A stretch of 32,457 nt of DNA from Planctomycetaceae bacterium (lineage in GTDB: Bacteria; Planctomycetota; Planctomycetia; Pirellulales; Pirellulaceae). Position numbers and translations under genes: made by a program. Position 1 is the first letter of the stretch; the number at the start of each line of letters is the position of its first letter. Under the pieces are notes generated by a model. The model was not told the DNA's origin. It saw only the letters and a list, made by a program, of their open reading frames with translations, and searched no databases. This document shows, one piece after another, positions 2,067 through 24,768 of the stretch. The stretch covers positions 1-32,457 of the forward strand of contig SKKK01000512.1 in NCBI GenBank assembly GCA_007121535.1. The letters run 5' to 3'.

Positions 2067-2075
2067 GGCGGGGCG

Positions 2076-3769: not shown

Positions 3770-3861
3770 ACCGTTTTGCCTCCGTATTTCAAGATGATTC
3801 GTTTTCGAACGCCGCCATCCGGCATCCCTGACTGTACACCGACCGTCCTAGGAACCTTCGT

Positions 3862-5121: not shown

Positions 5122-5224
5122 ATTTCCTTCCTAGCAAGCCCCTGATCGAACCCGCAACGCAACGGCGCGGAGCAGCCACTCGATTCTTTGGTCCGCCAAA
5201 AACTCGACGAACTCGGCACCTATG

Positions 5225-5253
5225 AAACTACCCATTTCCACAGATCTTGACAA
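5225..5253 (-). promoter_or_regulatory. Possible sigma70-type promoter for the KAS-ACP-FAD-FAD-FabZ unit
   Basis: Read on the minus strand, TTGTCA (5253-5248) is followed after exactly 17 nt by TAGTTT (5230-5225). The -35 box is near consensus and the -10 box is weak. It lies about 100 bp upstream of the ketoacyl synthase ATG, in the 144-bp gap after the OleD-like gene. This is a pattern match only; the genes may instead be transcribed through from the upstream gene. Confidence 0.3.
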
Positions 5254-5265
5254 GCGCCCCGGCTG

Positions 5266-6270: not shown

Positions 6271-6276
6271 TTTATT

Positions 6277-6282
6277 CCTCCT
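6277..6282 (-). promoter_or_regulatory. Ribosome binding site that decides the TTG start of the OleD-like gene
   Basis: AGGAGG on the minus strand ends 6 nt before the TTG at 6270-6268. No ATG or GTG is better placed, and the family's GxxGxxG motif starts seven residues after this codon. Confidence 0.7.
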
Positions 6283-6307
6283 AACACGGGCTGAAGCCAA
6301 AACCGAA

Positions 6308-6356
6308 GTAGGTTGGGGCTCCGACCCGACCCGGTCGGGCCAGAGTCCCAACCTAC
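6308..6356. repeat. Nested inverted repeat (GTAGGTTGGG type)
   Basis: GTAGGTTGGGGCTC (6308-6321) pairs with GAGTCCCAACCTAC (6343-6356) with one mismatch. An inner CCCGACC/GGTCGGG pair extends the stem. The element sits between the acyltransferase gene and the start of the OleD-like gene. It looks like a mobile or dispersed palindromic repeat rather than a terminator, because no T-run follows on either strand. Confidence 0.8.
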
Positions 6357-6433
6357 AATGATGCGCGCACCGTGCGAGCACCGTACGGCCTTAGACACGA
6401 AGTTGGGCTGACACCCGCAACCCAGGTAGCTTT

Positions 6434-6512
6434 CGTGCTCGTACTCGTACTCGTGCTCGTTATCTTAATCGACTTCCCGCCATCAAGTACGAGTACGAGT
6501 AGGAGCACGAGT
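6434..6512. repeat. Inverted repeat made of CTCGTA/TACGAG hexamers
   Basis: The left arm (6434-6460) is built from repeated CTCGTA-like hexamers. The right arm (6487-6512) is its reverse complement with one clear mismatch over about 21 bp; the loop is about 26 nt. A hexamer-built palindrome of this size is unlikely by chance. It lies 26 bp past the stop codon of the acyltransferase gene, so on the minus-strand transcript it could form a large 3' hairpin, but there is no adjoining U-tract. Confidence 0.85.
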
Positions 6513-6537
6513 GAAAACCATCCGTTCGATAATAGTC

Positions 6538-7323
6538 TTACACCACCCGGATCGACAAGCTGGGTGTGTCGGGCCTTTGTTTCAGCCATCGGACGGCGGG
6601 GCGAGGTCTGCTGCATCCTTGGATCTGACCTTGGCGTCGCTGGCCGGATACGGCCCACTGCTCCGCCTCGTCAGACAAATGATTCAACATCGTTTCGGCA
6701 TGAACTCGATACGATTCCAGGCCTTCGCGATCCAGGTCGGGTGGGATGCGAATTTGCGGCCCGGTCACGATGCGAGCCCGGGTAAATGGCCGAGGCAATG
6801 CGAACCGGTCCCAAGTTGGCATCCGCCAAGGTCGATCGTAACCGATCCCAAAGGGCACAAGCGGTAATTTCAACTTGGAAGCCAGAAAGATGCAACCGGG
6901 CGCCAGACAGCGACGCGGGCCTCGAGGCCCATCGGGGGTGATGGCCAGGTTCAGCCTCCGGCTGGCTCGCGCCAATTCGCGTAACGCCGCGTCCCCCCCG
7001 CTTCGCGTCGAGCCGCGAACCGTGTGAAAACCCATGTGCCGAGCCGCCTCGCACAACCAGTCGGCATCGCGATGGCGGCTGAGCAGCATGGCGATGTCGC
7101 AATGCGGCCGTAGATAAAAAGGGCACGGGATGTATTCGTGCCAAAAGATGTAGATCATCGAGGGCTGGAAATCCTCGTTCGTAGGATCGATCGACGGATC
7201 GTACATCAGGACCTGATAGTCCAGCGTGCTCATCCACTGCCGAACAAAGGTATAAACCGCCAAACCACCCAGCTTCCCTTGCCAATGCTTCTGTGCTGGC
7301 TGCCGATGCTTTTTTCGCCCCAT
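6538..7323 (-). CDS. DUF374 family lysophospholipid acyltransferase-like protein
   Basis: The 261-residue protein matches the DUF374 branch of the LPLAT superfamily. It has FWHEY at residues 60-64 in place of the HX4D block, RGSTRSGG at 103-110, TPDGPRGPRR at 129-138 and a C-terminal WDRFALPRPF. These proteins are thought to transfer acyl groups in envelope lipid or lipid A-type metabolism at the inner membrane; the exact substrate is unknown for most of them. The ATG at 7323 has an AAGGAAG ribosome binding site. It lies 61 bp downstream of dapF and upstream of the OleD-like gene on the same strand, so it could belong to either group. If it acts with the acyl-ACP cluster, it could be the step that hands the product to a lipid (inference). 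Confidence 0.82.
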   Translation of the reverse strand: MGRKKHRQPAQKHWQGKLGGLAVYTFVRQWMSTLDYQVLMYDPSIDPTNEDFQPSMIYIFWHEYIPCPFYLRPHCDIAMLLSRHRDADWLCEAARHMGFHTVRGSTRSGGDAALRELARASRRLNLAITPDGPRGPRRCLAPGCIFLASKLKLPLVPFGIGYDRPWRMPTWDRFALPRPFTRARIVTGPQIRIPPDLDREGLESYRVHAETMLNHLSDEAEQWAVSGQRRQGQIQGCSRPRPAVRWLKQRPDTPSLSIRVV

Positions 7324-7384
7324 CCAATTGCTTCCTTGCTGCGAAATTCGTTTTGAAGAAGGTCCCCGTAGACGACGACCCTGA

Positions 7385-8224
7385 TCAGCTCTCAGGCCAC
7401 TGACCTTGAAAGACCTCCTCGGCCGGTCCTGTCATGTACACATGACTATCCGAATCGTCCCACTGGAGAATCAGATCTCCCCCGCGAAGGTGATTGACGA
7501 TACGTCGTCGGGTGCGGCCGCTCAGCACGCCGGCGACGCAGACGGCGCTGGCGCCGGTCCCGCAGGCCCAGGTCTCCCCTGAGCCGCGTTCCCAGGTCCG
7601 CTGACGCACTTCGCCCGGTCCGATGACTTCGACGAATTCGACGTTGACCCGAGCCGGAAATTCCGATGCGGTTTCGATTTGGGGTCCTAACCCCAGAACC
7701 AGCTCATCCGTAGCTTCGGGGACGAAAATCACGCAATGCGGATTTCCCATCGATACGCACGTGACGTTCCAGCGATGTCCGGCGACTTCCAAGGGCACAT
7801 CGACGACGGGCGAGCCGGGTAGGGTGGTCGGGATTTTCGAGCCTTCGAGAATCGGCGGCCCCATGTCCACTCGAACCTGCCGGACCAGCCCCTGATGCGT
7901 CTGGACTTGGACTGCCAGCACTCCCGCCCCGGTTTCGATCCGCAACAGTTCGCGGCGGCACAAGCCGTGATCGTACACGTATTTGGCCACGCAACGGATG
8001 CCGTTTCCACACATCTCTGCTTCCGATCCGTCCGCGTTGAACATCTGCATCCGCGCATCGGCCGACTCCGAAGGGCGGATCAGGATCAGCCCATCACCGC
8101 CAACGCCGAAACGCCGGTGCGAGATCCGCCGCGCCAATTCCGGCAAGTCGTCGGGAACGTCTTGCGTGAAACAATCGAGGTACACATAGTCGTTCCCGGC
8201 TCCGTGCATCTTGGTGAATCGCAT
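7385..8224 (-). CDS. dapF: Diaminopimelate epimerase
   Basis: The 279-residue, cofactor-free racemase converts LL- to meso-diaminopimelate for lysine and peptidoglycan synthesis in the cytoplasm. The N-terminal [17 protein letters not shown] is diagnostic. The two catalytic cysteines are Cys72 in [10 protein letters not shown] and Cys221 in [14 protein letters not shown], in mirror-image domains. Length is typical. The ATG at 8224 follows a GGAGA site. It is the third gene of a probable minus-strand unit behind the glycosyltransferase and the AsmA-like gene (48 bp gap). An intact dapF fits a bacterium making DAP-type peptidoglycan or at least DAP-derived lysine. Confidence 0.97.
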
Positions 8225-8272
8225 CGGGAATGTCTCCGAGGGTTTTCGTCTTGTGGTCTCATGGAATACCCG

Positions 8273-11200
8273 TCAACGTGCCCGGCCGATCGGGAACCAG
8301 CCTACCTGGTTTCCCACGGCCGCTTCGGGGAATAACTGTTCCAGGGTCTCGCGGACCATCGGCAGGGGTTCTCGAGTCATGTGCGGCTGATCCAGGGTGC
8401 CGGTGGCACGGATCAGCAGCAGTTGCTGAGCCGCTTGGTGCAGCAAGGCGCGCAGCGCGGCCGGTTCCCACTCGCGCCGGCCCACCAGCGTATAGAACTT
8501 CATGTCGATCTGTCGATCCATGTTCATCTCGCCGTGCCCCTTCAGACTGATCGCGTCGCCATGAAAGTCGATCCGATCGAAGTACAGGTGCTCGCCCTGG
8601 ATGCGGAAATCGATGTTGCTGCTGGTAAAGGCTGTTCGATCGGGCGGCCGAATACTCAGCAGCTTCAGCAACGCCAGCATCACCGGGACTTCGTAGATAT
8701 CCGCTTCGTACAGCCGCATGAATCCGTCGCCGCGCCACGTATGGCGACCTTGCGCCGTCCCTCGCAGATTAACGACGACATTGGCCTTGCCGCGAATGTC
8801 TCGTTCCACGTGCGAGACCTCGGTGGCGAATTGTTGCAGATCGCCACCTTCCAACGCCGCTCGCAGATGGAAGGGAAGCTGGTCATCCAGCCCGACGGCG
8901 ATATCGGCCGAGATGGTTCCGCCAAAGGCTTGGGCGACCAGCGAGCGAGGCGGCGCGTCGATTTCTCCGCCTCCCGCGTCGGCGCCCAACACGACGCGAT
9001 CCGCTTGGATCAGCAAAGGGCCGCGGATCTGAGTGAGCTGGAGATCCTGATGGATCAAAGAATCGAGCTTAAGGTCTCCGCGACTGAAAAAGTCGTTGCC
9101 GTCGCTTCTGCCCTTCAGACGCACTTCGCCGTGGATTTGCTCCAGAGCCAATCCGCAAAACAGGCCGACGTTCTCCAAATCCACGTTCAGATCCCACGAG
9201 AAACTAGGGGGGCGTTCGTGTCCGCCGCGGATCGCCAACGCTCCGTGAATGCTGACATCGCCTCGCGGCGACAGCCGATCGATGGCCTTGCCCCAGCCTC
9301 TGGGCAACGCGCCCATCAGTTCGCGATCGAAACGAGCCCGCTCGATCACCAGATTCGTCACGTCGACAAACCATCGATCGTCCGATTCGAAGCGGCACCA
9401 GCCGTCCAGGCTGATCGAGGTGTTTCCCGATCGAGCGGACATCCGCTGCAACTGGATATGGCCGTCGCGGTAGGTGACGATTCCCGTCAGATCGTTCAGA
9501 CGTTGCGGAAACGCTTTGGGCGACAGCGCGATGCCGCGGCCTTCGTCCTGCAAGCGTTTCTTCCACTCGCGTGCCTGGATCTCGATCGACAGGTCATCCG
9601 TAGCCGATCGGTACTGCAGCACAACCCGCAGATGATCCAGAGCGCCTTGCGGACGCAGCTCCCGCCAGACTCGTTGGGCACTGGGATGCAGCGCATCACG
9701 CAAATCGTCCTCCAGAGGGATCTCCGTGCCCGTGAAGTTCAACGTCAGCAGGCTGCCGCCATCGTCGGTGGGCGTCCAACTGCCGTGGCATTCGATGTAT
9801 CCGCTGCGGTTACGACCCGACAGATTCTGGAAAGTCCAGCCCTGGTCGTCCCAAACGATCGTACCGCGAATCGAGCCCAGCGGGTAGGCAAAACGATCGT
9901 ACCGCATGGTACAGTTGTGCAGATCGATCTTGACCAGCCGGTGAGTCGGGCCGTCGGGATGCCGGCGCTCGAAACGCCCCGCGATCGTCAAGGCGCCGCC
10001 CGGACGCAACGATTCCAGAACCCTGCGAGCGTCGGCATCGACCACGGCGTTCAGGAGTTTTTCGTCCAGGGGAATCGGGCGGGGACTGGCGATTTCCAAC
10101 CAACCGGTCGGTGCGCTGGACACGTGGTCGAATCGACCATTGATGGTCACCGGCTGTTCGCTGGCAAACGCGCCCAGCTCGATCGACACGACGTCCCGAG
10201 CCAGCGTGATCTGGCCTTGCGTTCGCTGCAGTCGATAGGGAAACTCGTGATAGACGAACGATACATCATGGCACGTGATCTGAGCGCGAGGCTGCCACTG
10301 CCGGCCGTCGAAGTCCAGATGCAGATCGACGTCGACCAACCCCTGCGGCGAATACTCGTCCCAAACTCCGGCCAGTGCCGATGGCAAGAGCCGGGCGAAT
10401 TCTCGATCCACGCGCAAGCGTTGCACTCGTGCTTCCAAAGACATGGGACGGCTACCGCTGAAGTCCTGCCCCGTCCACGATAATTCCAGTTCGGTCGCTC
10501 CATTGCGCGCATAGAAGCTCTCGATGGCCAGATGTCGATCGTCCCAGCGGAATCGGGCGCGTCCGTCGTACAGCCGGAAGGGTAGCCGCGCGTCGTGGAT
10601 ATGGCCGTCAGCCCACTGACCTTGAACGGCGAAACGGGCCGGCGACTCGGTGCGCGAATCGCCCAAGACTTGAAAGTCCATCGAAACCCGGCCCTCGACG
10701 CCCTGCAGCGGCTGACTCCAATGACGCCACGATTCCGGGATGATGCGATGCAACGGCCGGGACAAGGTCAACCCGCTGATCCGCCCGCGAAAGTCCCAAG
10801 CTCCCGATTCGACAGGCAGCAGCGCCTCGAATCGAAGTTGCTCCACGTGATCGGCGGACCCGCTGCCGTGCAATCGCAAGGCTTTGCCCGTCGAGGCCGT
10901 GGCCGACGAGTGCTGTCCAACGTCATCGAGCGGAGCGATTTCCAAGTGCAAATCGCGGAGCGAAAAAGCCTGCGAGTCAGAACCCTGGCCGATCGTCAAA
11001 TGCACCGTGGCGTCCTGCATGCTGATGTGCGGGGTGCGAGGCCCGAAGCGAGGCGGAGGCCAGAGGTGGACCAGATCGCATTGGCCCTGATCGTCCAAAC
11101 GGCCGCGGAGATGCACGCCGCGCAATCGAAGTCGATCGGCGGACGGCAGGTGACCGTGAACCAAATCCTGCAGCACGATCGCGCTGTGCGCCATGATCTC

Positions 11201-11488
11201 GTGGACGTAAACCACCGGCTCGATCTCCGGCCGCCGATAGATCGCCAAGCCCTGGATCTCGATCCCGCGGCCTTCGATCAGCCGAGCGTCACGAACCGTG
11301 ACGTGATAGCCCGGATAATGATTCGCGAATCGCTGTTCGATCTCGATTCGGATCGCGTTGTCCACCTGACGTTGCAACAGCAACCAACCGCATAGCACCA
11401 CCAGGCCCAGCAGCACACCCAGCATCAGCAACTGTCGCAAGGCGCGGTGCAATCGCGTGAAGAACCCGATTTGCTGGGATTGGCTCAC
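8273..11488 (-). CDS. Very large AsmA-like membrane-anchored protein
   Basis: The 1071-residue protein has one N-terminal membrane helix at about residues 18-38, then a long beta-rich periplasmic part. Its C-terminal quarter has the AsmA-like pattern (FDRIDFHGDAISLKGHGEMN and an Asn-, Gly- and Asp-rich strand-turn rhythm). Proteins of this type (AsmA, TamB, YhdP) are proposed to bridge the envelope and move lipids or help outer-membrane assembly. I chose the GTG at 11488: it overlaps the upstream stop as GTGA, has AGAGGA about 10 nt before it, and puts the membrane helix near the N-terminus. The frame stays open for 267 more codons upstream, but that stretch lies over the glycosyltransferase gene. 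Exact function unknown. Confidence 0.72.
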   Translation of the reverse strand: MSQSQQIGFFTRLHRALRQLLMLGVLLGLVVLCGWLLLQRQVDNAIRIEIEQRFANHYPGYHVTVRDARLIEGRGIEIQGLAIYRRPEIEPVVYVHEIMAHSAIVLQDLVHGHLPSADRLRLRGVHLRGRLDDQGQCDLVHLWPPPRFGPRTPHISMQDATVHLTIGQGSDSQAFSLRDLHLEIAPLDDVGQHSSATASTGKALRLHGSGSADHVEQLRFEALLPVESGAWDFRGRISGLTLSRPLHRIIPESWRHWSQPLQGVEGRVSMDFQVLGDSRTESPARFAVQGQWADGHIHDARLPFRLYDGRARFRWDDRHLAIESFYARNGATELELSWTGQDFSGSRPMSLEARVQRLRVDREFARLLPSALAGVWDEYSPQGLVDVDLHLDFDGRQWQPRAQITCHDVSFVYHEFPYRLQRTQGQITLARDVVSIELGAFASEQPVTINGRFDHVSSAPTGWLEIASPRPIPLDEKLLNAVVDADARRVLESLRPGGALTIAGRFERRHPDGPTHRLVKIDLHNCTMRYDRFAYPLGSIRGTIVWDDQGWTFQNLSGRNRSGYIECHGSWTPTDDGGSLLTLNFTGTEIPLEDDLRDALHPSAQRVWRELRPQGALDHLRVVLQYRSATDDLSIEIQAREWKKRLQDEGRGIALSPKAFPQRLNDLTGIVTYRDGHIQLQRMSARSGNTSISLDGWCRFESDDRWFVDVTNLVIERARFDRELMGALPRGWGKAIDRLSPRGDVSIHGALAIRGGHERPPSFSWDLNVDLENVGLFCGLALEQIHGEVRLKGRSDGNDFFSRGDLKLDSLIHQDLQLTQIRGPLLIQADRVVLGADAGGGEIDAPPRSLVAQAFGGTISADIAVGLDDQLPFHLRAALEGGDLQQFATEVSHVERDIRGKANVVVNLRGTAQGRHTWRGDGFMRLYEADIYEVPVMLALLKLLSIRPPDRTAFTSSNIDFRIQGEHLYFDRIDFHGDAISLKGHGEMNMDRQIDMKFYTLVGRREWEPAALRALLHQAAQQLLLIRATGTLDQPHMTREPLPMVRETLEQLFPEAAVGNQVGWFPIGRAR

Positions 11489-12768
11489 GGGCAGGTATCC
11501 TCTTTGGACCGCGAGTCTTGACGTGACCACCACGTCCCGACGATTCCTGCTGCCAGGACCAACAAGGCCATCATCGCCGGCTGGCGATAGCGGATCGAGC
11601 CCACAAAGATCATGTGCAACGCGGTGAAATAGAGGGCGGGCAGAAAACAAAGCTGATACGGCCAGCCGGCGGAAGCCCAGCGCCAAGCGCCGTAAGCCCC
11701 GGCCACAAGCAGTGGAACATAACCCACCAAGACCAACAGACCGAACTGCCAGTTCCCCAAGGATGGCTCGTTGGGCCATACATTCCAAATCCGCAGAAAC
11801 TTGACACCCGCCAAACGCAGTGCGTCCATCGGATGAGCCACCGCCCAACGCAAAGCGGCGTCCCGCATTTTCCGGTCCAGACGCCGCTCGAACGATCGTT
11901 CCCATTCCCGTTGCCCGATCCCCGACGCCGCGTCCTCCTGTCGCAATCGCTGGCGAAATTCGTCGACAAACGTCATGTCGCTGGCCCCCGTGGCTTGCGG
12001 ATTCCAGCCGTCGTACAGGCTCTCGCCCACCTGCAAGGTCGTCGGCACGAAATGGCCCGTGACCCTCGCGTTGCGAATCCACCATGGCGCCATGGCCAAG
12101 ATCAAGCCCAATAGCATCCAGACGCCGATCCGCAGCGCACGCCGTCGCTGCTGTGCGTCCAGATAGGCGACGGTTAATGCCAGCGGAGTGAACAGCAGCC
12201 AACTGGGGCGCACCAGCGTTGCGGCGCCGGCGGTCAGACCGGCAAGCCCCGCTCCCAGTGCTTGAACGTTGGGTTCGTCGCTCCGCCAAGCCAGCGTTGC
12301 TAGCAGCAGTTGCAGCAGCATCAAGGGAACGAACGGCGCTTCGGACAACACAAAGGTGCTCATCGCCACCGCCTCGGGATACAAGGCGGCTGCCCAGGCT
12401 GCCAGGACGCCGCTACGGCGGCCGAACAGCACCCAAGCCAGAGCAGCGGCGGCCGCCACGGCAACGGTCCCCAACGCGGCCCCAAGGAATCTGCCCCAAA
12501 CAACGGGGGGCTGGCCGTCCGCCACCCAAAACAAAGGGGCCAGCAGCAGCGGATAACCGGGCGTGCGAAAGACTCGCCGCTCAGGATTCATCGCGTACGG
12601 TTCGCCGTTGGCGATTCGCTCGGCAAGAACCCAATAGCTTTCGCTGTCCGGGAAACCGAACTCCTGGTGCTGCGGCAATCGATCCTGCCACCAAACGCCA
12701 GCCGCCAAACGTAGAAGCAACGCGACGATCAGCGCCGGCAGGATCGATTTGTAAAACCCGGAAAACAC
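11485..12768 (-). CDS. ArnT/PMT-type membrane glycosyltransferase (GT39/GT83-like)
   Basis: The 427-residue polytopic membrane protein has many hydrophobic segments. An early periplasmic loop contains DSESYWVLAERIANGEPYAM, and RTPGYPLLLAPLFW follows, as in PMT_2/ArnT-like transferases that use polyprenyl-phosphate sugars. The acidic pair in the first loop (PDSESY) is the expected catalytic region. I chose the GTG at 12768 because CAGGAAG lies at normal distance and the first membrane helix follows directly; a longer in-frame start at 12903 would run through the palindromic repeat. Its stop overlaps the AsmA-like start by 4 nt, so the two are co-translated. Sugar donor and acceptor are unknown; a role in envelope glycan or lipid modification is likely. 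Confidence 0.78.
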   Translation of the reverse strand: MFSGFYKSILPALIVALLLRLAAGVWWQDRLPQHQEFGFPDSESYWVLAERIANGEPYAMNPERRVFRTPGYPLLLAPLFWVADGQPPVVWGRFLGAALGTVAVAAAAALAWVLFGRRSGVLAAWAAALYPEAVAMSTFVLSEAPFVPLMLLQLLLATLAWRSDEPNVQALGAGLAGLTAGAATLVRPSWLLFTPLALTVAYLDAQQRRRALRIGVWMLLGLILAMAPWWIRNARVTGHFVPTTLQVGESLYDGWNPQATGASDMTFVDEFRQRLRQEDAASGIGQREWERSFERRLDRKMRDAALRWAVAHPMDALRLAGVKFLRIWNVWPNEPSLGNWQFGLLVLVGYVPLLVAGAYGAWRWASAGWPYQLCFLPALYFTALHMIFVGSIRYRQPAMMALLVLAAGIVGTWWSRQDSRSKEDTCP

Positions 12769-12796
12769 GGTGATCGGCTTCCTGAAAAACTGGAAT

Positions 12797-12930
12797 CTTC
12801 TGCGCACACCCGAGGCTGGAAAAAACTGGAAAAATTGGGACAGGCACCTTCGCGCCCACAAATCTTCCGATGCTTTCGCGGTTCTCACCGGAGCCGGTCC
12901 CATTTTTCACGGTCGCCTCGTGCGCAGAAG
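12797..12930. repeat. REPIN-like nested palindrome
   Basis: Outer arms CTTCTGCGCA (12797-12806) and TGCGCAGAAG (12921-12930) are perfect complements, extended inward by CGAGG/CCTCG. Inner arms AAAAATTGGGACAGGCACC (12830-12848) and GGAGCCGGTCCCATTTTT (12890-12907) pair imperfectly. The GGGACAGGCACC/GGAGCCGGTCCC pair resembles REP sequences mobilised by RAYT-type (Y1) transposases; no such transposase is in the window. It lies between the glycosyltransferase and the HzsA-like gene, directly upstream of the former's ribosome binding site, where it could affect transcription. Confidence 0.82.
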
Positions 12931-12981
12931 GACGCGGGATATTAGGGCAAACGGTCCGTCAAGGTCAAGATAGACCTGCTG

Positions 12982-15900
12982 CTAAGGACCGGTCGGGTCA
13001 TCGTACCGTTTCTTGCCCGCTCGGATCGCATCGCGAAACTGCGATTCAAGCTGGCGGCGCTGTTGGTACTGCTGTTCGCGCCACAAGTCGATGCCGCTCA
13101 ACTGAAAACCCTCCATGCCCACGTCCGGGCGCTGGGCCAGTTGCGTCTGACCGGCGCGCAGGATCTCCAACGCCTGGACGTAGTCCGGATCGTCCACGCG
13201 GTCAAAGCCGGCCAGGATCGGGCTCAGTTCCGGTCGGTCGAAGCTGACCAGCGGCCCCTGGTTGCGGGCGTGATCGAACTGGAGGCCCAATTTGTGGCCA
13301 GTCAGCCGCTCCAACTGGCTGATTTGAGCCCTGTCCAGTGGCGATCGGCCGCCGGGATGGTTGGGGTACGACGTGGAATAGTCCGGGTAGAAGACGGCGT
13401 TCAAATCGATCCAGGTGACCACGCGAGCGAATTCGTCCGGGCTCAACTGGACCGGCTCGTGCGAGGGTTCCTCGTTTCGCAACACGCGGACCAGGCGGCT
13501 GGCATGCGAGCCCCACGAGTACGCGGGTTGCGTCTCTGCAGGCCCACCGCCCACCACGCGAATCATGCCCTTGCGCCACAGCTCGTTGTACGACGTGTTG
13601 AAGACCAAATTGCGATCGGCTGCCAAATTCAAGGCCTCGCCGGCCGCCTGGCCGTAATCGTGGCAACTGACGCAGTGTTGCTCGAAAATCGGCTGGACTT
13701 CGGTCATGTAGTTGAACGTTTCGGTCTTGCCACGCCACCCCGTCATGGGGTGCGGCGCGTGGCTGAGCGCTATCCCGACCGGTTGTTTCCCGTCCAGCAA
13801 AGGCGCCGATCGACGATCGTCATGACAGCCGATACAGCCGGTGGTCTCGCCCGATTGAACGACCGTCCCGCTTCGCATCGACTGGATCATCATGCCGTCT
13901 TCGTCCAGCAGTTGAAAATACAGAAAGGTATCCGAGGGCACAGTGAAATGAGCCGACCCGTCCGCCTCGACGGGCACGGTACCCAGGATGCGTTTCGTCT
14001 CGAAGCTGTGCCAATTCACGCCCGGATGATGGACCCCCTGACCGCCCCAGGATCCCGGAACCCAATAACGTTTCTCAGGCGATTCCACCACTCGCACCGA
14101 CTTGATCGTGCCTCGCGGTACGCCGCTCATCAACGAACCCTGATACACGTCCTGAATGTAGAAGGTACCCTCGGCCTGATGGAAATCCCGCCGCGGAGGG
14201 ATGACGGTCGGTCGAACCGTAGGCCCCAGCGGACTGGGGTTGAAGCAACCCGGCGGCTCGGCGTGCAACAACAGTTCGTTGCCGAACACGTCGACCAGGA
14301 AGATCCCCGTACGATTGTTGACATCACGCGTGCCGCCGCTGCCTTCGGTCAGTCGGGAAACCAAAAAGAACGAATCGCACAGCGGGTACGGATCCTTATA
14401 CTTCGGCGCGATGCCCATGAACACGTCCCAGGCTCCGTTGGCCGTGCCGGGGTCGCGCACCAAATCCATCGCCTCGGGCGGCCAGATCCGCTGGACCGGG
14501 GCGCGGCCGTCCATGCCCACTCGACGGTCGATCAACGCCAGCGCGCCCCAGGACAGATCGTGGCACGACGAGAAAATACACAAAGCCTGGTGCGTGCCCG
14601 GCACGGCGCGCGCGTCGATCACCGCACCCGGCGCCGGCGTGTTGTTGCCCCAATAGATCGCCTGGTTGGTACCGTCCGGACTGACCGTCCACAACGCTTG
14701 GGCATCGCCGAAGTTCCGGTCGACATATTCCCAGCGGTCGTACAGGATACGGCCGTCGGGCAGGATGTCGGTCGCGCGGTCGAACAGCGTATTCTTGGTG
14801 ATCTGGTGGATATTGGCGCCGTCGGCTTCCATTCGATACAGGTTTGCGCTGATGTGCCGATTGCACATGACGTATTTCGGTTCGCGAGTCGAGCTGAACA
14901 CGATCGAATCGTCGGGCAGGTACAACGGGTGGATGTTGTCCGAGTCGGGCAGATGAGTCAACTGCCGGAGCCCTGTGCCGTCGGCGTGGATCTCGAAGAT
15001 GTGAAAGCTGGTCTGCGGATCGGTCCGCATGGAAAAGATGATCCGCCGGCCGTCCCAGTGCACTCGCGGATCTCGGATGACGCCCGCTTCGGTCTTCAAC
15101 AACGTGGTGATTCGACCGCCATCGCCCAGATCGATGGTCTTGAGCGCACCGCCCGGTCGAAAATGCCCCTGATTGAATTCGTGGGGCGCGTCGGGAGAAA
15201 AATTGTGGGTGTTGTGGTGGTCGTACGTGTACTGCTGCCGAACCACATAGACGATCTTGCGTTCGTGGACCGCCGGGTTCGCCACCAAGGCTTCTCGGCG
15301 CAAGGCTTCGAAATCGTCGGCTAAATCCTGATTTTCGCCGCCGTCGGCCCGGGCCATCGCCGTTTGCAGATCATCCAGACGGGTCAAGTATTCCTGGCCG
15401 TGCGGATAATCGTCACCCCAGCGAGCCATCAGATACTGGATCGCTTGGCGCAGCGGCTGGAATTCGGCCTCCAGCCGTCGGTGCAGCCGCGCCGCGTTTC
15501 GAACCCGCGTGGCTTCGGGATCGAGCGTCGCTTGGGCTCGGAAATCGTCGAACGTGATGTGCCCCCAACCCCCCGTGTGCTGGTCGACCAACCGCAGGAA
15601 CACCCGTTGCCCGATCCATGGCGTCAAGTCCCACTGGACTCGATGCATGGTCTGGCTGTTGCGGCCTCGAGCCTGCAAGACCTCGGTGCCGTCTTCGATA
15701 CACAAGGCCACGCGAGTGCTCTGATGAGCCCCGCCACCGACCAGCATCGAGGCGTACGGGCCGGTGACCACCATCACCGGCGATTCCACGATACCCGTTT
15801 GCGTGTCGTCCGGTCGGTCGCTGTCGGATCGCTCCAGCGTGCTCAGATAATACTCGCCCTGCTTCGTGTAAGGGACCTGATGATGGAATTCGAACTCGCG

Positions 15901-16062
15901 ATTGCTGACCAAGCGATCGAATCGACCCTCGACCACCTCCCAGCCCTGCAGGTCGCCCGTCTCGAAATCGAAACGCAGCAACTCGTCTGATTCCGCCGCC
16001 CACGCGGCAACCGCCGTCCAGGCGAACCAAACCACCATCCAGTGGCCACAAATTCGAGTCAT
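12982..16062 (-). CDS. Secreted HzsA-like protein: PD40 beta-propeller with two c-type heme sites
   Basis: The 1026-residue protein begins with a signal peptide (cleavage probably after AWAA, about residue 22). Residues about 25-170 look like a galactose-binding or lectin-like beta-sandwich. TolB/PD40-type propeller blades follow (HIFEIHADGTGLRQLT, NLYRMEADGANIHQIT, DILPDGRILYDRWEY). The C-terminal part has two heme motifs: CIGCH at 743-747 and CVSCH at 797-801. This order matches the hydrazine synthase alpha-subunit family (HZS_alpha), which also occurs in planctomycetes that do not perform anammox. No hzsB/hzsC gene is adjacent, so hydrazine synthesis should not be assumed. The ATG at 16062 has AGGAGA upstream; a TTG one codon earlier is less likely. 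Located in the periplasm or outside, with probable redox or carbohydrate-related function. Confidence 0.8.
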   Translation of the reverse strand: MTRICGHWMVVWFAWTAVAAWAAESDELLRFDFETGDLQGWEVVEGRFDRLVSNREFEFHHQVPYTKQGEYYLSTLERSDSDRPDDTQTGIVESPVMVVTGPYASMLVGGGAHQSTRVALCIEDGTEVLQARGRNSQTMHRVQWDLTPWIGQRVFLRLVDQHTGGWGHITFDDFRAQATLDPEATRVRNAARLHRRLEAEFQPLRQAIQYLMARWGDDYPHGQEYLTRLDDLQTAMARADGGENQDLADDFEALRREALVANPAVHERKIVYVVRQQYTYDHHNTHNFSPDAPHEFNQGHFRPGGALKTIDLGDGGRITTLLKTEAGVIRDPRVHWDGRRIIFSMRTDPQTSFHIFEIHADGTGLRQLTHLPDSDNIHPLYLPDDSIVFSSTREPKYVMCNRHISANLYRMEADGANIHQITKNTLFDRATDILPDGRILYDRWEYVDRNFGDAQALWTVSPDGTNQAIYWGNNTPAPGAVIDARAVPGTHQALCIFSSCHDLSWGALALIDRRVGMDGRAPVQRIWPPEAMDLVRDPGTANGAWDVFMGIAPKYKDPYPLCDSFFLVSRLTEGSGGTRDVNNRTGIFLVDVFGNELLLHAEPPGCFNPSPLGPTVRPTVIPPRRDFHQAEGTFYIQDVYQGSLMSGVPRGTIKSVRVVESPEKRYWVPGSWGGQGVHHPGVNWHSFETKRILGTVPVEADGSAHFTVPSDTFLYFQLLDEDGMMIQSMRSGTVVQSGETTGCIGCHDDRRSAPLLDGKQPVGIALSHAPHPMTGWRGKTETFNYMTEVQPIFEQHCVSCHDYGQAAGEALNLAADRNLVFNTSYNELWRKGMIRVVGGGPAETQPAYSWGSHASRLVRVLRNEEPSHEPVQLSPDEFARVVTWIDLNAVFYPDYSTSYPNHPGGRSPLDRAQISQLERLTGHKLGLQFDHARNQGPLVSFDRPELSPILAGFDRVDDPDYVQALEILRAGQTQLAQRPDVGMEGFQLSGIDLWREQQYQQRRQLESQFRDAIRAGKKRYDDPTGP

Positions 16063-16235
16063 CAACGGATTCTCCTATCGCGAAAGCCATCGCCGACGGG
16101 TTCGGAAAACACGTTCAGCTTTCCAACTAAAACCGCTGAAAACCTTGTTTTTACCGCGTTCCCAGCGTTTCTTATGATTTTCTGTTCCCCGCTGCACTAC
16201 CGTTCGTACAAAAGTTCGTGCCGCCCGTACAATGA

Positions 16236-16267
16236 AAAAGGCCAGTCGGGATGGTAGCCCGCTGGCC
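16236..16267 (-). terminator. Intrinsic terminator on the minus strand
   Basis: On the minus strand GGCCAGCGGG pairs with CCCGACTGGCC (one bulged base) around a 7-nt loop and is followed at once by TTTTT. That is a classical Rho-independent terminator. It lies 174 bp upstream of the HzsA-like start, so it would stop minus-strand transcripts coming from the pseudogene region and isolate the HzsA-like gene; a leader attenuator is possible if the promoter lies above 16267. Confidence 0.65.
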
Positions 16268-16936
16268 CAAATCCACCTATCCCAGTTGCAAGACGACGTG
16301 AACCCTTGACCCATTCTAACGGCCCCGCCCGCAAACGCCAAGCGGCTACAACACGAAGCTGGCGAGTTCACGGCAAGTCGGGCACGAAGCGGCCATCCAC
16401 ATGGCAGCGGCGGCCACGTGAAAGGGCGCTTCTGCCTCCAACAGTCGCCATTGCAGATCTTGGCCCTACCGGGTTACACTGAACGAACAAGTCGGTCATA
16501 CCATAAAGATCCACCGTTTATACGATTTGGTTTCTTCCAGGATGGTCGGGATGCCGTTGATGATGAAGTTCTTCCGATCAACCACGTGCAGACTCGCAGC
16601 GAAGCACCCGGCCAGATATTCGTTGATGGAATCGGGCGAAAGGGGTCGGGAGTCGTTTTCGGGTAACCCGCTTCCCATGTGGTAAATCGTTGGCCGAAAA
16701 CGACTCCCGACCCCGTTGCGTCCCCGTGCAAGGCTACCCTCAATTGGAAAGAGACGCCTGGCCGGCTGCTTTTCAGTGGCGTTGGATACCTGCTGTACGG
16801 CTAAGCCTCCAATTGGCCGGAATGCCTCCCGCCGCCATTTTGCAAGCGCCTCCGCTATTTGGCGCTCCAGGGTTATGCGGAGACCGTTGTGCGAGAACTC
16901 TGTGGGCCGATCATTGCCGCCTGCCGCGTGAGAAAT
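16268..16936. other. Gene-poor stretch with repeat and an unrecognised short reading frame
   Basis: I find no convincing intact gene here. A 60-codon minus-strand frame (16496-16678) encodes a protein-like stretch around SINEYLAGCFAASLHVVDRK, but its 5' end runs into the inverted repeat at 16642-16714 and I see no good start or ribosome binding site. It may be the tail of a lost gene. The 16715-16936 part shows nothing I can identify. Confidence 0.4.
16642..16714. repeat. Long inverted repeat, GGGGTCGGGAGTCGTTTTCGG type
   Basis: The arm at 16642-16662 (GGGGTCGGGAGTCGTTTTCGG) is the exact reverse complement of 16694-16714; the loop is about 31 nt. Two 21-bp perfect arms cannot be chance. The size and structure fit a dispersed REPIN-type element. 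It lies in the gene-poor area upstream of the HzsA-like gene and differs in sequence from the palindrome at 12797-12930. Confidence 0.9.
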
Positions 16937-17480
16937 TTATAGCATGTCACCTTCGAGGCGGTAGATCCCGAGGAAATCGTCGAAGTCGATTTCCTCGGGG
17001 TCTTTGGTACTGTCTAGTTTGATGTCCCGCATCCTTTCGTCGTCTACCACCGTCAGTTCGCTTCCCTCAATGCGCCACCTCTTACCCTTTTCCGCGACCA
17101 TCTCCGTGCTGTAGATGAAACTGGACGTGACAATCCAGTCGCCCTGGAGTTAAGTCCTGGGCTGCCCACGTACAATACGCCTTGACGGTGCAACAGGGCC
17201 CGCGGCGAATCGGTTTCGATGACGGCCACCCGCTCGCCAAAACGGCAAGCGTTCCGAGGAGGGACGTCCATAAGAAGGTAACGGTGTTCGTCGCAGCGTT
17301 CCAAATCCGCACCGTGTTGTCGAAGCTGGCGGACAGGATCAGCTTGCCGTCCGCCGTGAAGACAACATTGCTGACGGGAGCCCGATGTCCGATCAACCGG
17401 TGCTTTATCTTCCCGGTCTCAACATCCCAGAGAGTCAGCAAAAGCGTCCTGACTATCTCGGATTCGCAACAACAGGCTGG
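16937..17480 (-). pseudogene. Broken WD40-repeat / TIGR03067-domain gene
   Basis: The upstream part encodes WD40 blades (LTLWDVETGKIKHRLIGH, then APVSNVVFTADGKLILSASFD with VRIWNAATN) but has no clear start. Around 17245 the sense appears to change frame, and around 17140 it changes again. The 3' part reads LQGDWIVTSSF, then KRWRIEGSELTVVDDERM, LDSTKDPEEIDFDDF and GIYRLEGDML before a stop at 16937. That last part fits TIGR03067, a short beta-rich domain common in planctomycetes, function unknown. An in-frame TAA just before LQGDW and the frame changes indicate decay, or errors in the sequence. The original may have been one WD40-TIGR03067 protein or two neighbouring genes. Confidence 0.7.
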
Positions 17481-17577
17481 GGCGGGTCTCTTCGGACGGT
17501 TGCGTCATCCATCCGCTCCTATCAGAATTACCGGGTCTGGCTTCCAAATCTTTCACGAGAATCTTAAGATTTATCCG

Positions 17578-18579
17578 TTAGCGGTTTGCGTCCACCGTGG
17601 TGCTCCGGGCGGCTCGGAAGGACTGTTGGTTGGTTTCCAGGGTCAACGGACCGGCGTCAGCGCCGCCGGGCGGGTAGATCGACTGATGGTACCCCTTGTA
17701 GGTTTCTGTGCGAAGATTGGCAACCATGGCATGTCCGCTTCGCCGCGCTCGTTCCGATCGCAAGGCGCTCAGATCGATGGGGCCGACCACGATCTTCTCG
17801 CCGGCGCCAGGGTCGGCTTGCGTCAAGATCCGGCCGTCATAGTCGACGATCATGCTGCCGCCGGGCCAACTGAAAGGCGGGTAATGCTTCAGGCTGCTGG
17901 CTTGGTTACTGGCCACGACGTACGCCATGTTCTCCAAGGCCCGGCAGCGGTTGACGGTCGTCCACCAGTCCATCGGCGACGCCGTACCCCAAGGGTCCAT
18001 GTACGCAGAGACTCGAATCAATACTTCGGCGCCGCCCAGCGTGAGTTGCCGGATCGCTTCGGGGAACAGCCAGTCGTAACAGATGGCCGCCCCGATGCGA
18101 CCGATTTCCGTTTCGGCGACCGGGTACAGGGGCTGGTCGTACCCGGTCAAGTCATGCGGGCTGGTATGCAGTTCCCAGGGAGTCCAAGTGTGGACCTTGC
18201 GATACTTCGACAGGATGCCGTCCGGACCGATCAGGCACGTCGTGTTGAAGACGTGGCCCGGCCAACGAGCGTCCGATTCCAGGAACGTGCCGGTTTGGAT
18301 GTAGACTCCCAAGTGCCGAGCTTTCTGCACGTAGCGGTCGGTGTGTTCGTTAGGGATCGGGATCGCAAGCCGTTGGAACAGGTGTTCGACGTCCGGATAG
18401 ATCGGCGCGGCGTGAGCGAACTCGGGGAAGACGACCAACCGGACATCGAACAGCGGTCCGTAGCCGGTGACCGCATACTCGACCATGTCCAGCATGTGCT
18501 TGACGCGCGGCGCGATTTCGTCTCGAGTGCGCGGGTTGGGTAGATCGATCTGACAGGCGGCGGCGTAGTAACGTTCCAT
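17578..18579 (-). CDS. Nitrilase-superfamily carbon-nitrogen hydrolase
   Basis: The 333-residue cytoplasmic enzyme has the Glu-Lys-Cys triad: Glu53 in VFPEF, Lys128 in KYRKVH and Cys167 in AAICYDWLFPE, with a probable second Glu in WELH at about 136. It hydrolyses a non-peptide C-N bond in an amide, carbamoyl or nitrile compound. The segments resemble amidase and N-carbamoyl hydrolase branches, but the substrate cannot be assigned. The ATG at 18579 comes 6 bp after the stop of the large lipoprotein gene, so the two are surely one transcript; the TAGGA across that stop can act as ribosome binding site. The C-terminal 20 residues are low-complexity. Confidence 0.88.
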   Translation of the reverse strand: MERYYAAACQIDLPNPRTRDEIAPRVKHMLDMVEYAVTGYGPLFDVRLVVFPEFAHAAPIYPDVEHLFQRLAIPIPNEHTDRYVQKARHLGVYIQTGTFLESDARWPGHVFNTTCLIGPDGILSKYRKVHTWTPWELHTSPHDLTGYDQPLYPVAETEIGRIGAAICYDWLFPEAIRQLTLGGAEVLIRVSAYMDPWGTASPMDWWTTVNRCRALENMAYVVASNQASSLKHYPPFSWPGGSMIVDYDGRILTQADPGAGEKIVVGPIDLSALRSERARRSGHAMVANLRTETYKGYHQSIYPPGGADAGPLTLETNQQSFRAARSTTVDANR

Positions 18580-18585
18580 GGAATC

Positions 18586-21500
18586 CTAGGGTCCCAGAAT
18601 GTGACGGGTGTTATAACGAGTTCGATATTCGCGGGTTTTGGGCGTATCGGGGTACTGCTCGTCGGGCCCGTACGGGTATCCGCTCATGCCTTGAAACGGC
18701 AGCGGTTCGACCGTATCGGGATAGGCGGTGTACAGGTCCATGTCCTTGCAGTAGCTGTGAGTCTTCAGCACGAACGAGCGGTGCATGCCGTCGGGCACCG
18801 GACCCAGTGCGGCGGGATCGAATTGCAGGGTCAATCCATCCCCGTGAGCCATGATTACAAAGCAGTCGTCAGCTTCCTGCAGCAGTTCCGCGACCTCCCC
18901 GTAGCGCGTGTAGTGTCCGGCCATCAACTTCCAGCCCGCCGTCCGGTCGATGTTTTCATAATCGACCAAGTTCGGTTGTCGCCCGTCGGGCGAGTATTCG
19001 CGGGGATATCCCAAGAAGTGCAGGTCGGCGCTGCTGGGGCCGACCTTGGTGATTCGCATTTCGGCCGAAGGATCGTGCAGAGCCAAAAAGGCGCAGTCCC
19101 AATACAGTTCCATATTGCTGCGGATTCGCAGGAAGCGATCGGTGGTCTGCAAATGTCCGGTCATCTCCAGCGTCATCATATGTTCGATGCCTGCCGGGTA
19201 GCCGACTTCGCGGAACAACTCCACCCACGTTCCGTCGCGTTTCACTTCGATCGTCGGCGCCTCGCAACGCAATCCGGCCTGATGGATGGCATAGTTCGAC
19301 GACGAGTAGCCGTAAGCGACCCAACCGTACAGCACAAGGATCGGCCGGTCCTGATGGGTCAGCTCCGCCAGCCGATCGCCGAAATCGAGTTCGACCCAAT
19401 GAGGATCGGCCAGCCCCAGAAACCGAGGATCGCGACGTGTCGCACCGGCATATCGTCGATCGACCTGCAGTATCTTATCCGTCACGTCAACGCCTCGATG
19501 GTCCACCGCAGCCACCGGGGGGATCGTATCGTGGAAGCAGAACATCTTGAACTCGGGCGGCGGCACCCCGATGGCCATCATCTCGTTCGGATACACCCGA
19601 GTGCCCACCGGATGGTCCACGGCCAGCAACTTGGTTTCATCCAGGTACGTGACCTCTTCCAGCCCATTGACCACCTGCAGCACGTAGTAGCCATCCAGTG
19701 GCTCCAGCGCGGGCAAGGGCAGGTACTCGGACGGATCTGGAGTTGCATAGACGCCCGGTTCCAACAGGTACCCCAACCCGCCGACTCCGCCGAAATCCGC
19801 AACGAACTCGAAGCGACTGCCCGTCCACGCAAACAGATAGGGGCACGATGAAGTCTTGCGGTTCAATTGCTCGACGGTTTGCACGCGGTTCGAGGCCAAT
19901 TCCAATTCGGCTTGCAGCACCGCGTCGGGCCAGATGATCCGCAGCCAATCCAGTTTGGTGAAATCGCCCAGACCGGCATGAACTCGCAGCGGCGGCATGG
20001 CGACGGGGCCCGACCCGCCCCCGACGAAGTGCTGTTGAAAAACGTCGCCCGTCTTGATCTCGACTCGTGCCCCGATTCCCGAATGATTGGATCGAGCCAT
20101 CTGGTCGGCGGGGCGAGTGCCGGTCAGATCCAACTGGATCCAGTGCCCGCCGGGCGTGATGTTCTCCAGCAGCATCGGGCGGCGTCCGGTGGCCGCAATC
20201 AACAGATCACAAAAACCGTTGCCGGTGAAATCGGCAACGACACAACTGGCGTCGCCCCCCGTCTCGATCGCCGGCAGCAGCAGTTCCGGGTTCAGATCGG
20301 CAGCGTCCACGAAACCGCCGTTCGGCCATTGATTCAGCAGCACCACGGGACCGCGCGTCCCGTCGCGGCGCCGGGCGTCGCCCAGCACCAAGTCCAAATC
20401 GCCATCGTTGTCGATATCGACAAACTGGCCCCCGGTGCCGCCCAAATGGCCCCACGCCGCCGTAAACTCTTTGTCCAGGCGAAATCGGCCATGGCCGTCG
20501 TTGCGCATCAGTTTCATGCCCGAATCGGTGAACAGCAACAGGTCGCGGTGCCCCGTCTTGTTCGGATCGCCGCTGATCCCGCTGATCACGCCCTGCACGT
20601 CCAAACCGACGTCGGCGCCATCGATCCAGCGAAAGGCCCCTACCCGATCGTTGATCCAGACCTTGATCGATCCGTCGGCCAGGATGCAGATCAGATCCAA
20701 GTCGTAATCGTTGTCCCAATCATCGTAGATGATCCCGGTGACGGCCACGTCGGGGAACTGCAATTCGAACGCCTCGGCAGCTTCGTCGAAGGTGCCGTCC
20801 CGATGGTTCAGCAAGACGCTGGATGGCGCGGCTTGGCTGTTCCGGTCCGCCGGAACGTTCCCGGCCGACGAACGAAAGGCCAGCAGATCCAGATCCCCGT
20901 CGCTGTCCAAATCGACCAGACGCGCCAGATGGGTCAGCGCGTCGGGACCCGCCACCATCTCTTCCGAAGCGCGGTGGAAATGCCCGCTGCCGTCGTTCAG
21001 CAGCAGCATGTCGCTGCCCGCCCGCCCCAACCACAGATCGACGTGGCCGTCGTTATCGACGTCGCCGAAACAGGGTGAAACGCCGTGCGAACCGATGGTC
21101 TGCCCTTGGTTGAAGTTTCCTTGTCCGTCGTTGATCCAGATCATCGTCTGACCCTTGGGGCCGCAAGCGGTCAGACACAGATCCAAGGCGCCGTTGCCGT
21201 TGACATCCGCCACCGCGATCCCCGGCAACAGGATCTCGCCACCTGACCAATCCCACGCCTGCAACGAGACATCCAGCTCTCGAACCTCGGGCGAAAAGAC
21301 GGGTGGACGGATCTCGCCGGACGGCGGTCGCTCCAAAGGCAGGTTGTCGGCGCCCAGGATCATGTAATGCTTGCCTGCCCCGCCATACGCGGTCGCAACC
21401 GCAAAGCTGCCGGCGGACAATTCGGCCGCTTGCAGTTGGCGGAACCGATCCAGCAGCGGCATGACCTTGTCGCTGCGATCGGTGCCGCGATACTGCATCG

Positions 21501-22086
21501 CCAAGCGGTAGATGGCCGATACGAACCCCGGATTTCGCTCGACCACCTGCTCCAGCAACTGCACGCCGCGTTCGGTCTGGTCGTCCGCCAGCGAAACCTC
21601 CGCCAACTTGTACTTCGTGTGCAGATCGTCCGGATCTGCCTTGTGCGCTCGCTCGAAAAACTCGATGGCCTTCTTCGTTTCGCCCAAATACTGGTAGTAC
21701 ATGCCCAGCGAGAACAACGACGCGACGTGGTGCGGATCCACGGCCAGCACCTTTTCGAATTGCTCCCGGGCGATGTCCAGGGCGTCCCGAGCCTCGATTT
21801 CCCCTTGCAGATTCAGGTAAGCCAGTCCGAGATTGAAGATGGCAGCGACCCAGGAGGGATGCGCCCGGACCACCTTTTCGTATTCGGCGGCGGCATCTCC
21901 GTACCGGTACTGTTCCATCAAGGCGTTGCCTCGATTGAAGCTGGCCAGTGCTTGCACGACTTGCGGGTCGTCGAAAGACAACGTGGCGTCCCGCGTCGGG
22001 GCATCTGCGGTCACGTCGTCCGCCGGTCGGACGCCGCAACCAAGCGGGGACAGCATCAAGGCGATCAGCAGATACTTGCGAGTCAT
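18586..22086 (-). CDS. TPR / FG-GAP (VCBS) / UnbV-like large lipoprotein
   Basis: The 1166-residue exported protein has a hydrophobic N-terminus ending LSPLGC with Cys17, an imperfect lipobox. Residues about 40-225 are tetratricopeptide repeats (AIFNLGLAYLNLQGE, SLFSLGMYYQYLGE, AIEFFERAHKADPDD). A series of calcium-type FG-GAP/VCBS blades follows (DVNGNGALDL, DVDNDGHVDL, DLDSDGDLDL, DIDNDGDLDL). Then comes an ASPIC/UnbV segment (GIGARVEIKTGDVFQQHFVGGGSG) and a long C-terminal domain of unknown role, rich in Tyr and Trp. Such proteins are frequent in planctomycetes and acidobacteria and are presumed surface or periplasmic. The ATG at 22086 has AAAGGAAAG upstream. It is the first gene of a unit with the nitrilase-like hydrolase. 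Function unknown; the architecture suggests protein or glycan binding. Confidence 0.8.
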   Translation of the reverse strand: MTRKYLLIALMLSPLGCGVRPADDVTADAPTRDATLSFDDPQVVQALASFNRGNALMEQYRYGDAAAEYEKVVRAHPSWVAAIFNLGLAYLNLQGEIEARDALDIAREQFEKVLAVDPHHVASLFSLGMYYQYLGETKKAIEFFERAHKADPDDLHTKYKLAEVSLADDQTERGVQLLEQVVERNPGFVSAIYRLAMQYRGTDRSDKVMPLLDRFRQLQAAELSAGSFAVATAYGGAGKHYMILGADNLPLERPPSGEIRPPVFSPEVRELDVSLQAWDWSGGEILLPGIAVADVNGNGALDLCLTACGPKGQTMIWINDGQGNFNQGQTIGSHGVSPCFGDVDNDGHVDLWLGRAGSDMLLLNDGSGHFHRASEEMVAGPDALTHLARLVDLDSDGDLDLLAFRSSAGNVPADRNSQAAPSSVLLNHRDGTFDEAAEAFELQFPDVAVTGIIYDDWDNDYDLDLICILADGSIKVWINDRVGAFRWIDGADVGLDVQGVISGISGDPNKTGHRDLLLFTDSGMKLMRNDGHGRFRLDKEFTAAWGHLGGTGGQFVDIDNDGDLDLVLGDARRRDGTRGPVVLLNQWPNGGFVDAADLNPELLLPAIETGGDASCVVADFTGNGFCDLLIAATGRRPMLLENITPGGHWIQLDLTGTRPADQMARSNHSGIGARVEIKTGDVFQQHFVGGGSGPVAMPPLRVHAGLGDFTKLDWLRIIWPDAVLQAELELASNRVQTVEQLNRKTSSCPYLFAWTGSRFEFVADFGGVGGLGYLLEPGVYATPDPSEYLPLPALEPLDGYYVLQVVNGLEEVTYLDETKLLAVDHPVGTRVYPNEMMAIGVPPPEFKMFCFHDTIPPVAAVDHRGVDVTDKILQVDRRYAGATRRDPRFLGLADPHWVELDFGDRLAELTHQDRPILVLYGWVAYGYSSSNYAIHQAGLRCEAPTIEVKRDGTWVELFREVGYPAGIEHMMTLEMTGHLQTTDRFLRIRSNMELYWDCAFLALHDPSAEMRITKVGPSSADLHFLGYPREYSPDGRQPNLVDYENIDRTAGWKLMAGHYTRYGEVAELLQEADDCFVIMAHGDGLTLQFDPAALGPVPDGMHRSFVLKTHSYCKDMDLYTAYPDTVEPLPFQGMSGYPYGPDEQYPDTPKTREYRTRYNTRHILGP

Positions 22087-24549: not shown

Positions 24550-24651
24550 CGTTCAGGCATAAAAAGGAGACGCTTGTCCGCTGACCACGGAGGTCGTAAG
24601 TTGCTTTCGCCTGTGGTATATTACCGCGTCATCAAGCCTGACGGAAGCGGA

Positions 24652-24715
24652 GTGAGCGGTGTCGCGCCGCCAACCGGTCGGATTGAAGACCGGCGGCTAA
24701 AGTCATCCCGCTCAC
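24652..24715. promoter_or_regulatory. Nested palindrome between two divergent flavoprotein genes
   Basis: GTGAGCGG (24652-24659) pairs with CCGCTCAC (24708-24715). Inside it, GCCGCC plus ACCGGT (24666-24678) pairs with ACCGGCGGC (24689-24697). It lies 54 bp before the ATG at 24769 and about 100 bp from the divergent start at 24549. It could be an operator, a 5' leader structure of the plus-strand gene, or a small dispersed repeat. A TATATT at 24617-24622 is a possible -10 box, but no convincing -35 is spaced with it. Confidence 0.5.
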
Positions 24716-24768
24716 CGGTGGGGACGAACGCGATGTGTGATGAGAGGCGACAGTTGGGAGACGGCAAG

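Follow-up and report, generated by a model that had tools for sequence, protein, structure and literature searches.

Results

Gene and protein at the locus

The window, i.e., the whole stretch of 32,457 nucleotides analysed here (contig SKKK01000512.1 of assembly GCA_007121535.1, Planctomycetaceae bacterium), carries on its reverse strand an open frame (12982-16065) coding for a relative of HzsA, the alpha subunit of hydrazine synthase (HZS). With the ATG at 16062, the start chosen in an earlier note on this DNA, the product is an HzsA-like di-heme propeller protein of 1026 residues plus a stop (12982..16062). It matches the Pfam family HZS_alpha (PF18582) with 119 bits against a cut-off of 26.6, and its AlphaFold2 model, built from 64 sequences, has a mean pLDDT (predicted local distance difference test) of 88.6. 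A Pfam scan at E 0.01 returned HZS_alpha, Cytochrome_CBB3 and PD40 only, with no PSCyt or PSD domain.

All features of the protein lie on the reverse strand. Its N-terminus, MTRICGHWMVVWFAWTAVAAWA, is a plausible Sec signal peptide (residues 1-23, 15994..16062), a hydrophobic stretch ending in AWA that was read by eye and not by a signal-peptide predictor. In the model it is followed by the strands of a beta-sandwich module (residues 25-180, 15523..15990), a helical linker (182-266, 15265..15519) and a beta-propeller (267-615, 14218..15264), in which PD40 is a weak Pfam match and which, by model, fold match and alignment, bears the family-specific residues H282, C400, R443-W-E-Y, D448 and H501. 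The HZS_alpha middle domain (651-748, 13819..14112) covers positions 1-98 of the 98 of PF18582 and contains heme motif 1, CIGCH (743-747, 13822..13836), which by alignment corresponds to heme alpha-I of HzsA. The C-terminal cytochrome c domain (785-890, 13393..13710), recognised by profile search, model and fold match, holds heme alpha-II, with motif CVSCH (797-801, 13660..13674) and His868 (13459..13461), aligned with the distal alpha-II ligand His772 of HzsA. A helical extension (905-1015, 13018..13350) closes the model; the fold match to HzsA stops at residue 908.

The earlier note had ascribed an HZS_alpha architecture to this protein, and for the two CXXCH motifs, the HZS_alpha domain, the plausible signal peptide and, weakly, PD40 this holds. 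It does not hold for the N-terminal sandwich, since the alignment with HzsA begins only at residue 265 (structure) or 298 (phmmer). This module is absent from HzsA and optional in orthologues, being found in 31 of the 71 examined (the 80 orthologue loci described below minus nine missed by a motif filter). Its relatives are the C-terminus of a sulfatase (L050) and DUF7133 proteins (L052, L053, L054); a Foldseek match to the MAM-domain chain 8yt7 (E 7.9e-5) is a hint only. The sandwich is thus an accessory module.

Relationship to hydrazine synthase

Searched alone against PDB sequences, the protein finds hydrazine synthase alpha and nothing else (E 3.3e-12). A profile of its paralogues in the source genome finds HzsA at E 3.5e-66, covering the propeller, the middle domain and the C-terminal heme domain. 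The model superimposes on HzsA of Kuenenia (5c2v_D of entry 5C2V) with Z 31.5, 2.7 A over 565 residues and about 24% identity, while the next structural matches, TolB propellers, reach Z 25. Taken with the sequence matches, this difference places the kinship far beyond what generic propeller and cytochrome c domains would give, as the earlier note had supposed: the window protein is a true relative of HzsA. It shares with the Kuenenia protein the propeller, the middle domain, the C-terminal cytochrome c domain, both CXXCH motifs and the distal alpha-II histidine; it differs in lacking Tyr591, in having other conserved pocket residues and an extra N-terminal module, in standing apart from any hzsBC genes and in having many paralogues.

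The number of these paralogues is considerable. HZS_alpha occurs above the cut-off at 32 places in the source genome, against none in 14 control genomes; three genomes of the same genus have 37, 39 and 30 copies, and the genome G010 has 36. The profile and the domain scan used 29 of the 32, the copies on contigs C340, C119 and C136 being cut by a contig end or short of the propeller. Among the 29, F5/8 type C domains are found in at least ten, Laminin_G_3 in three, NPCBM in two, FGE-sulfatase in three and HEAT in three.

Orthologues of the window gene are also widespread: 363 of the 403 pattern matches in the contig database are relatives. We examined the loci of the best 80 of these 363 (46-92% identity), mostly from metagenome-assembled genomes (MAGs); judging by the record titles, they belong to Planctomycetota, Verrucomicrobiota, Lentisphaerae, Kiritimatiellae, Hydrogenedentota, Armatimonadota and others. 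Among the nearest named records, MAGs of the CSSed isolate series predominate. In a MAG of the same genus the orthologue (L105 / L084, 476-3565) is broken by one in-frame stop.

Heme ligands and the pocket

The protein scores 64.9 bits with the HzsA equivalog model NF052339 of NCBIfam, whose cut-off is 800. Excerpts of PMC12607021 describe Tyr591 of HzsA as a ligand of heme alpha-I. At this position (H+4) tyrosine stands in 12/12 proteins of anaerobic ammonium oxidation (anammox) bacteria and in none of 64 orthologues, 28 paralogues and four proteins of the clade I type (see below); the window protein has arginine. His772 presents the opposite picture, being retained in 12/12 anammox proteins, 27/28 paralogues and 55/64 orthologues and absent from the four clade-I-type proteins. 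The zinc ligand Cys303 is replaced by asparagine; it is, though, a poor membership criterion, because only five of the 12 aligned anammox proteins have cysteine there. The alignment of HzsA ligands that the earlier note proposed shows the alpha-II histidine kept and the alpha-I tyrosine, a known catalytic ligand, lost along with the zinc cysteine. Five fragmentary open reading frames were left out of this residue comparison.

Nine residues fixed in 64/64 orthologues are missing from the 12 anammox proteins: H282, C400, R443, W444, E445, Y446, D448, H501 and E739. Most are common in the paralogues as well (R443 in 26/28, C400 in 23/28, E739 in 26/28). Residues 281-300 and 448-452 are conserved and yet have low pLDDT; we presume that these segments would become ordered around the missing heme or ligand.

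Could this nevertheless be the hydrazine synthase alpha of an unrecognised anammox bacterium? The HZS_alpha domain, the HzsA fold, the two hemes, the alpha-II histidine and the presence of HzsBC-like genes elsewhere in the genome are in its favour. We regard this as refuted by the sequence and give it hardly any probability: the equivalog score falls far below a line that anammox HzsA passes in 27 of 392 planctomycete genomes, Tyr591 is lost throughout the orthologues, the HAO family (PF13447) has no match in the source genome (95.3% complete), and up to 39 copies per genome are ill-suited to one metabolic enzyme. To judge by its sequence, the window protein is not HzsA, and the different active site together with some thirty copies in the genome suggests that it probably has another redox task. 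A match to HZS_alpha should accordingly not be read as a sign of anammox.

The same data bear on the proposal that we are dealing with a non-catalytic heme protein, either an electron relay or a surface binder that attaches to glycans and hands electrons on. The many binding modules on the paralogues and the retained bis-His heme II agree with it, and the loss of heme motif 2 from three of the 28 aligned paralogues indicates that function varies within the family. Against it, the dense set of invariant polar residues absent from HzsA (RWEY, H282, H501, E739) resembles a binding or catalytic site, and heme motif 1 is retained in 28/28 paralogues and 64/64 orthologues. We consider this proposal doubtful, though worth keeping in mind. 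The source genome's own paralogues L031, L036 and L037, which have heme motif 1 and no heme motif 2, form a deep branch.

The betagamma partner

Domain scans and the betagamma profile described below detected no hzsB- or hzsC-like gene in the window, which bears out the earlier statement that such partners are not adjacent. The further claim that other hydrazine synthase genes are lacking is correct for the window and incorrect for the genome, where we find the 32 HZS_alpha places, an HzsBC-like fusion on contig C617 and an operon on contig C206.

In 11 of the 80 orthologue loci a betagamma gene adjoins the alpha gene or stands one to two alpha genes off; many of the loci are cut by contig ends. 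It encodes a protein of about 614 residues with a propeller and two CXXCH motifs. The profile of nine such adjacent proteins (A3) finds HzsB (5c2v_B, 3e-48) and HzsC (5c2v_C, 3.7e-35) in the PDB, and the C617 fusion, whose neighbours are unrelated, scores 853 bits with it. Contig C617 has no match to HZS_alpha; in the betagamma tree its protein falls into a clade of 12 (support 99/98), ten of which come from loci with window-type alpha genes. About 2 kb before the fusion gene there is a four-CXXCH cytochrome c554-type protein (L191, 5595-7265, forward strand). Against the 32 alpha places, the source genome thus has one C617-type betagamma gene; C206 adds its pair, and C486 encodes a distant protein.

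Gamma-Cys165 and gamma-Asp168 of HzsC are absent from all 15 aligned betagamma proteins outside clade I, including that of C617, which is a further argument against an anammox hydrazine synthase. The Cys165 column lies one place off a cysteine in the clade-I-type proteins (RQCG) and was for this reason counted only for the other 15, which have no cysteine nearby.

The betagamma proteins of L118, L182 and C617 match the Pfam domain CCP_MauG, and in the PDB A3 also matches cytochrome c peroxidases, if weakly. It is tempting to propose a peroxide-driven system, with betagamma acting like a di-heme CCP/MauG peroxidase and modifying the alpha subunit or a substrate bound to it. We think this improbable: the strongest PDB relatives spanning both halves of the betagamma protein are HzsB and HzsC, and at the gamma-His144 position, where excerpts of PMC12758564 report tryptophan in clades I-III, the C617 protein has serine and only one of nine betagamma proteins from window-type loci has tryptophan.

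The two genes go together across genomes. Among 40 relatives of the source genome, strong HZS_alpha (best E <1e-27) and strong A3 (>=540 bits) occur in the identical 11 genomes with none discordant (Fisher 4e-10); counted by genus (8 of 37), Fisher gives 3e-8. In four further relatives HZS_alpha is only weak (best E 1e-11 to 1e-13), and a strong A3 is absent. In a phylum sample of 392 genomes, from which the source genome and the 27 anammox genomes were set aside, 19 have both, eight alpha only, one A3 only and 336 neither (p 2e-24).

A second system, trees and published relatives

The C206 operon (L016, i.e., positions 1-17000 of that contig; 3258-9702, reverse strand) encodes an HzsA-like protein of 632 residues, a CRTAC1-like FG-GAP/UnbV protein of 574 and an HzsBC-like protein of 987 with ten CXXCH motifs; the last finds HzsB (8e-30) and HzsC (6e-23) in the PDB. 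Its layout fits the published clade I. In a tree of alpha proteins, for which 16 of the 64 orthologues and six of the 12 anammox proteins were used, anammox HzsA and clade I (100/99) are separated from all others (100/99), and the orthologues of the window protein form a clade of their own (100/100). The betagamma tree splits likewise (98/96 and 99/98). To our knowledge, hydrazine synthase was long held to be without relatives; the window protein belongs to a well-supported sister branch, spread over several phyla and with what appears to be a different active site. The paralogues L010-L012 of the source genome group with FGE-bearing alphas which, in other genomes, are neighbours of window-type alphas (L113, L118, L160, L175), so genes that are together in some species stand scattered here.

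Three papers, cited from excerpts of their text, describe related systems. Hagglund et al. 2025 (PMC12758564) report distant alpha/betagamma pairs outside anammox, divided into clades I-IV, and conclude that no hydrazine is made; the excerpts mention few alpha homologues, the absence of alpha-His772 in clade I and, in clades I and II, alpha and betagamma genes separated by a CRTAC1 gene. The window family shares with these clades the fused HzsBC-like partner, the loss of Tyr591 and the HZS-like fold. In contrast to clade I, it keeps His772, forms a separate, fully supported branch and has no betagamma gene in the window; and, unlike in clades I and II, a relative of the window's own CRTAC1-like gene is present in none of the 80 orthologue loci. 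HZS-like genes were also reported in Phycisphaerae MAGs from the Oslofjord tunnel (PMC10732223), where a wider family with alternative substrates was proposed. These MAGs likewise have an HzsA-like gene and an HzsBC fusion, but there the hzsA-like gene is immediately upstream of the hzsBC-like one, whereas the window gene stands alone. PSCyt1-3 are planctomycete-specific cytochromes with carbohydrate-binding modules (PMC5615132). They resemble the present family as large heme families of the PVC (Planctomycetes, Verrucomicrobia, Chlamydiae) bacteria fused to Laminin_G_3, NPCBM and F5/8 type C, with function unassigned; the window protein differs in its HZS_alpha fold and in having no PSCyt or PSD domain.

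Homologous HZS-like systems are therefore already in print, and the description "undescribed periplasmic redox enzyme" in the earlier note stays plausible for the enzyme and needs this restriction as to novelty. In the open-licence PMC literature, preprints excluded, we found no description of an HZS_alpha expansion with glycan-binding modules, of the kept His772 or of the co-occurrence; within the literature searched, the alpha expansion appears to be an undescribed variant.

Discussion

Indications of function

If betagamma and additional HZS_alpha genes are set aside, each neighbour family is found in at most 12 of the 80 orthologue loci. The composition of some loci suggests sugar catabolism: L182 has a LacI regulator, alpha, betagamma and a sulfatase, with an FGGY kinase, a DeoC-type aldolase and Fe-ADH nearby; L159 an SDR, DeoC, FGGY (by similarity) and alpha; L130 DeoC, alpha and a sulfatase; L175 Dak1, an FGE-alpha, alpha, betagamma and Gfo/Idh. 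Several orthologues adjoin sulfatases. Together with the glycan-binding modules, the sugar-type loci make sugar-derived substrates the leading guess, no more.

We tentatively prefer the following explanation, to which we give somewhat less than an even chance: the window protein would be the alpha-type subunit of a non-anammox HZS-like alpha/betagamma redox system of the periplasm, which probably oxidises a small sugar-derived compound and may be linked to the breakdown of glycans. In that compartment the alpha and betagamma proteins would work as partners. The catalytic site may be heme alpha-I, with the usual histidine of its CXXCH motif as ligand and lined by the family-specific residues; the reaction there would probably be the oxidation of the sugar-derived compound, and electrons could leave through the bis-His heme alpha-II or through the betagamma hemes. 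Paralogues with glycan-binding modules may provide alternative specificity or serve as targeting subunits. A bolder extension, which we consider rather unlikely as it stands, is that in some planctomycetes one or two betagamma cores work with thirty or more exchangeable alphas, which differ in their glycan-binding modules, and so oxidise many different compounds of sugar type; in that case hydrazine synthase would have arisen as a specialised branch of an older HZS-like superfamily.

Several points weigh against the preferred explanation. Eight of the 27 alpha-bearing genomes of the phylum sample have no strong betagamma. Alpha and betagamma are not linked in the source genome, where 13 kb or more lies between them, and the C617 protein could be the partner of another paralogue. 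The p-values for co-occurrence are too small, because the genomes share descent and the line of 540 bits was set after the scores had been seen. That the conserved residues lie at heme alpha-I is deduced indirectly. Sugar-type neighbours are few (FGGY in 4/80, DeoC in 3/80 and Gfo/Idh in 12/80 loci), and the genes around the window gene have no catabolic character and reappear in 0 to 3 of the 80 orthologue loci. Nearness to sulfatases was given little weight, because sulfatases are present in all 40 relatives (3 to 44 counted per genome, with 43 candidates scored in each).

One may also think of inorganic nitrogen or nitric oxide chemistry other than hydrazine synthesis. The descent shared with hydrazine synthase and the alternative substrates proposed in the excerpts of PMC10732223 speak for it. 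The genome has no HAO-family protein, however, the gamma-I site features are absent from the partner, the informative neighbours are of the sugar type, and such chemistry would not readily account for the glycan-binding modules; we therefore hold it to be unlikely. If the function of the window family were established, for sugar oxidation or otherwise, it would show what chemistry hydrazine synthesis came from and would assign a role to a large heme-protein family in these genomes.

Other genes of the window

Upstream of the gene, on the same strand, lies a pair (17578-22086) consisting of a protein with TPR, FG-GAP and UnbV_ASPIC domains (1166 residues) and, after six bases, a carbon-nitrogen hydrolase; the two genes probably form an operon. 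Because its first gene resembles the CRTAC1 gene in the published HZS-like operons, we considered this CRTAC1-like/hydrolase pair as part of an operon with the HzsA-like gene. We rejected it, relatives of either being found at none of the 80 orthologue loci. The distance from the HzsA-like gene to the hydrolase, which also speaks against the pair, is 1.5 kb and is occupied by gene remnants (16066-17577), with a WD40-repeat fragment at about 17245-17441 (reverse strand), a short fragment at about 16960-17130 and stops in all frames.

A flavin amine oxidase-type protein (24229-26022, forward strand) is related to HpnE (hydroxysqualene dehydroxylase), with 108 of 283 bits, i.e., under the cut-off. 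At the other end of the window, 612-8224 on the reverse strand codes for two FAD amine-oxidase-type proteins, a beta-ketoacyl synthase, a 3beta-HSD/SDR protein, a DUF374 protein and a diaminopimelate epimerase, which may belong to a lipid or polyketide pathway.

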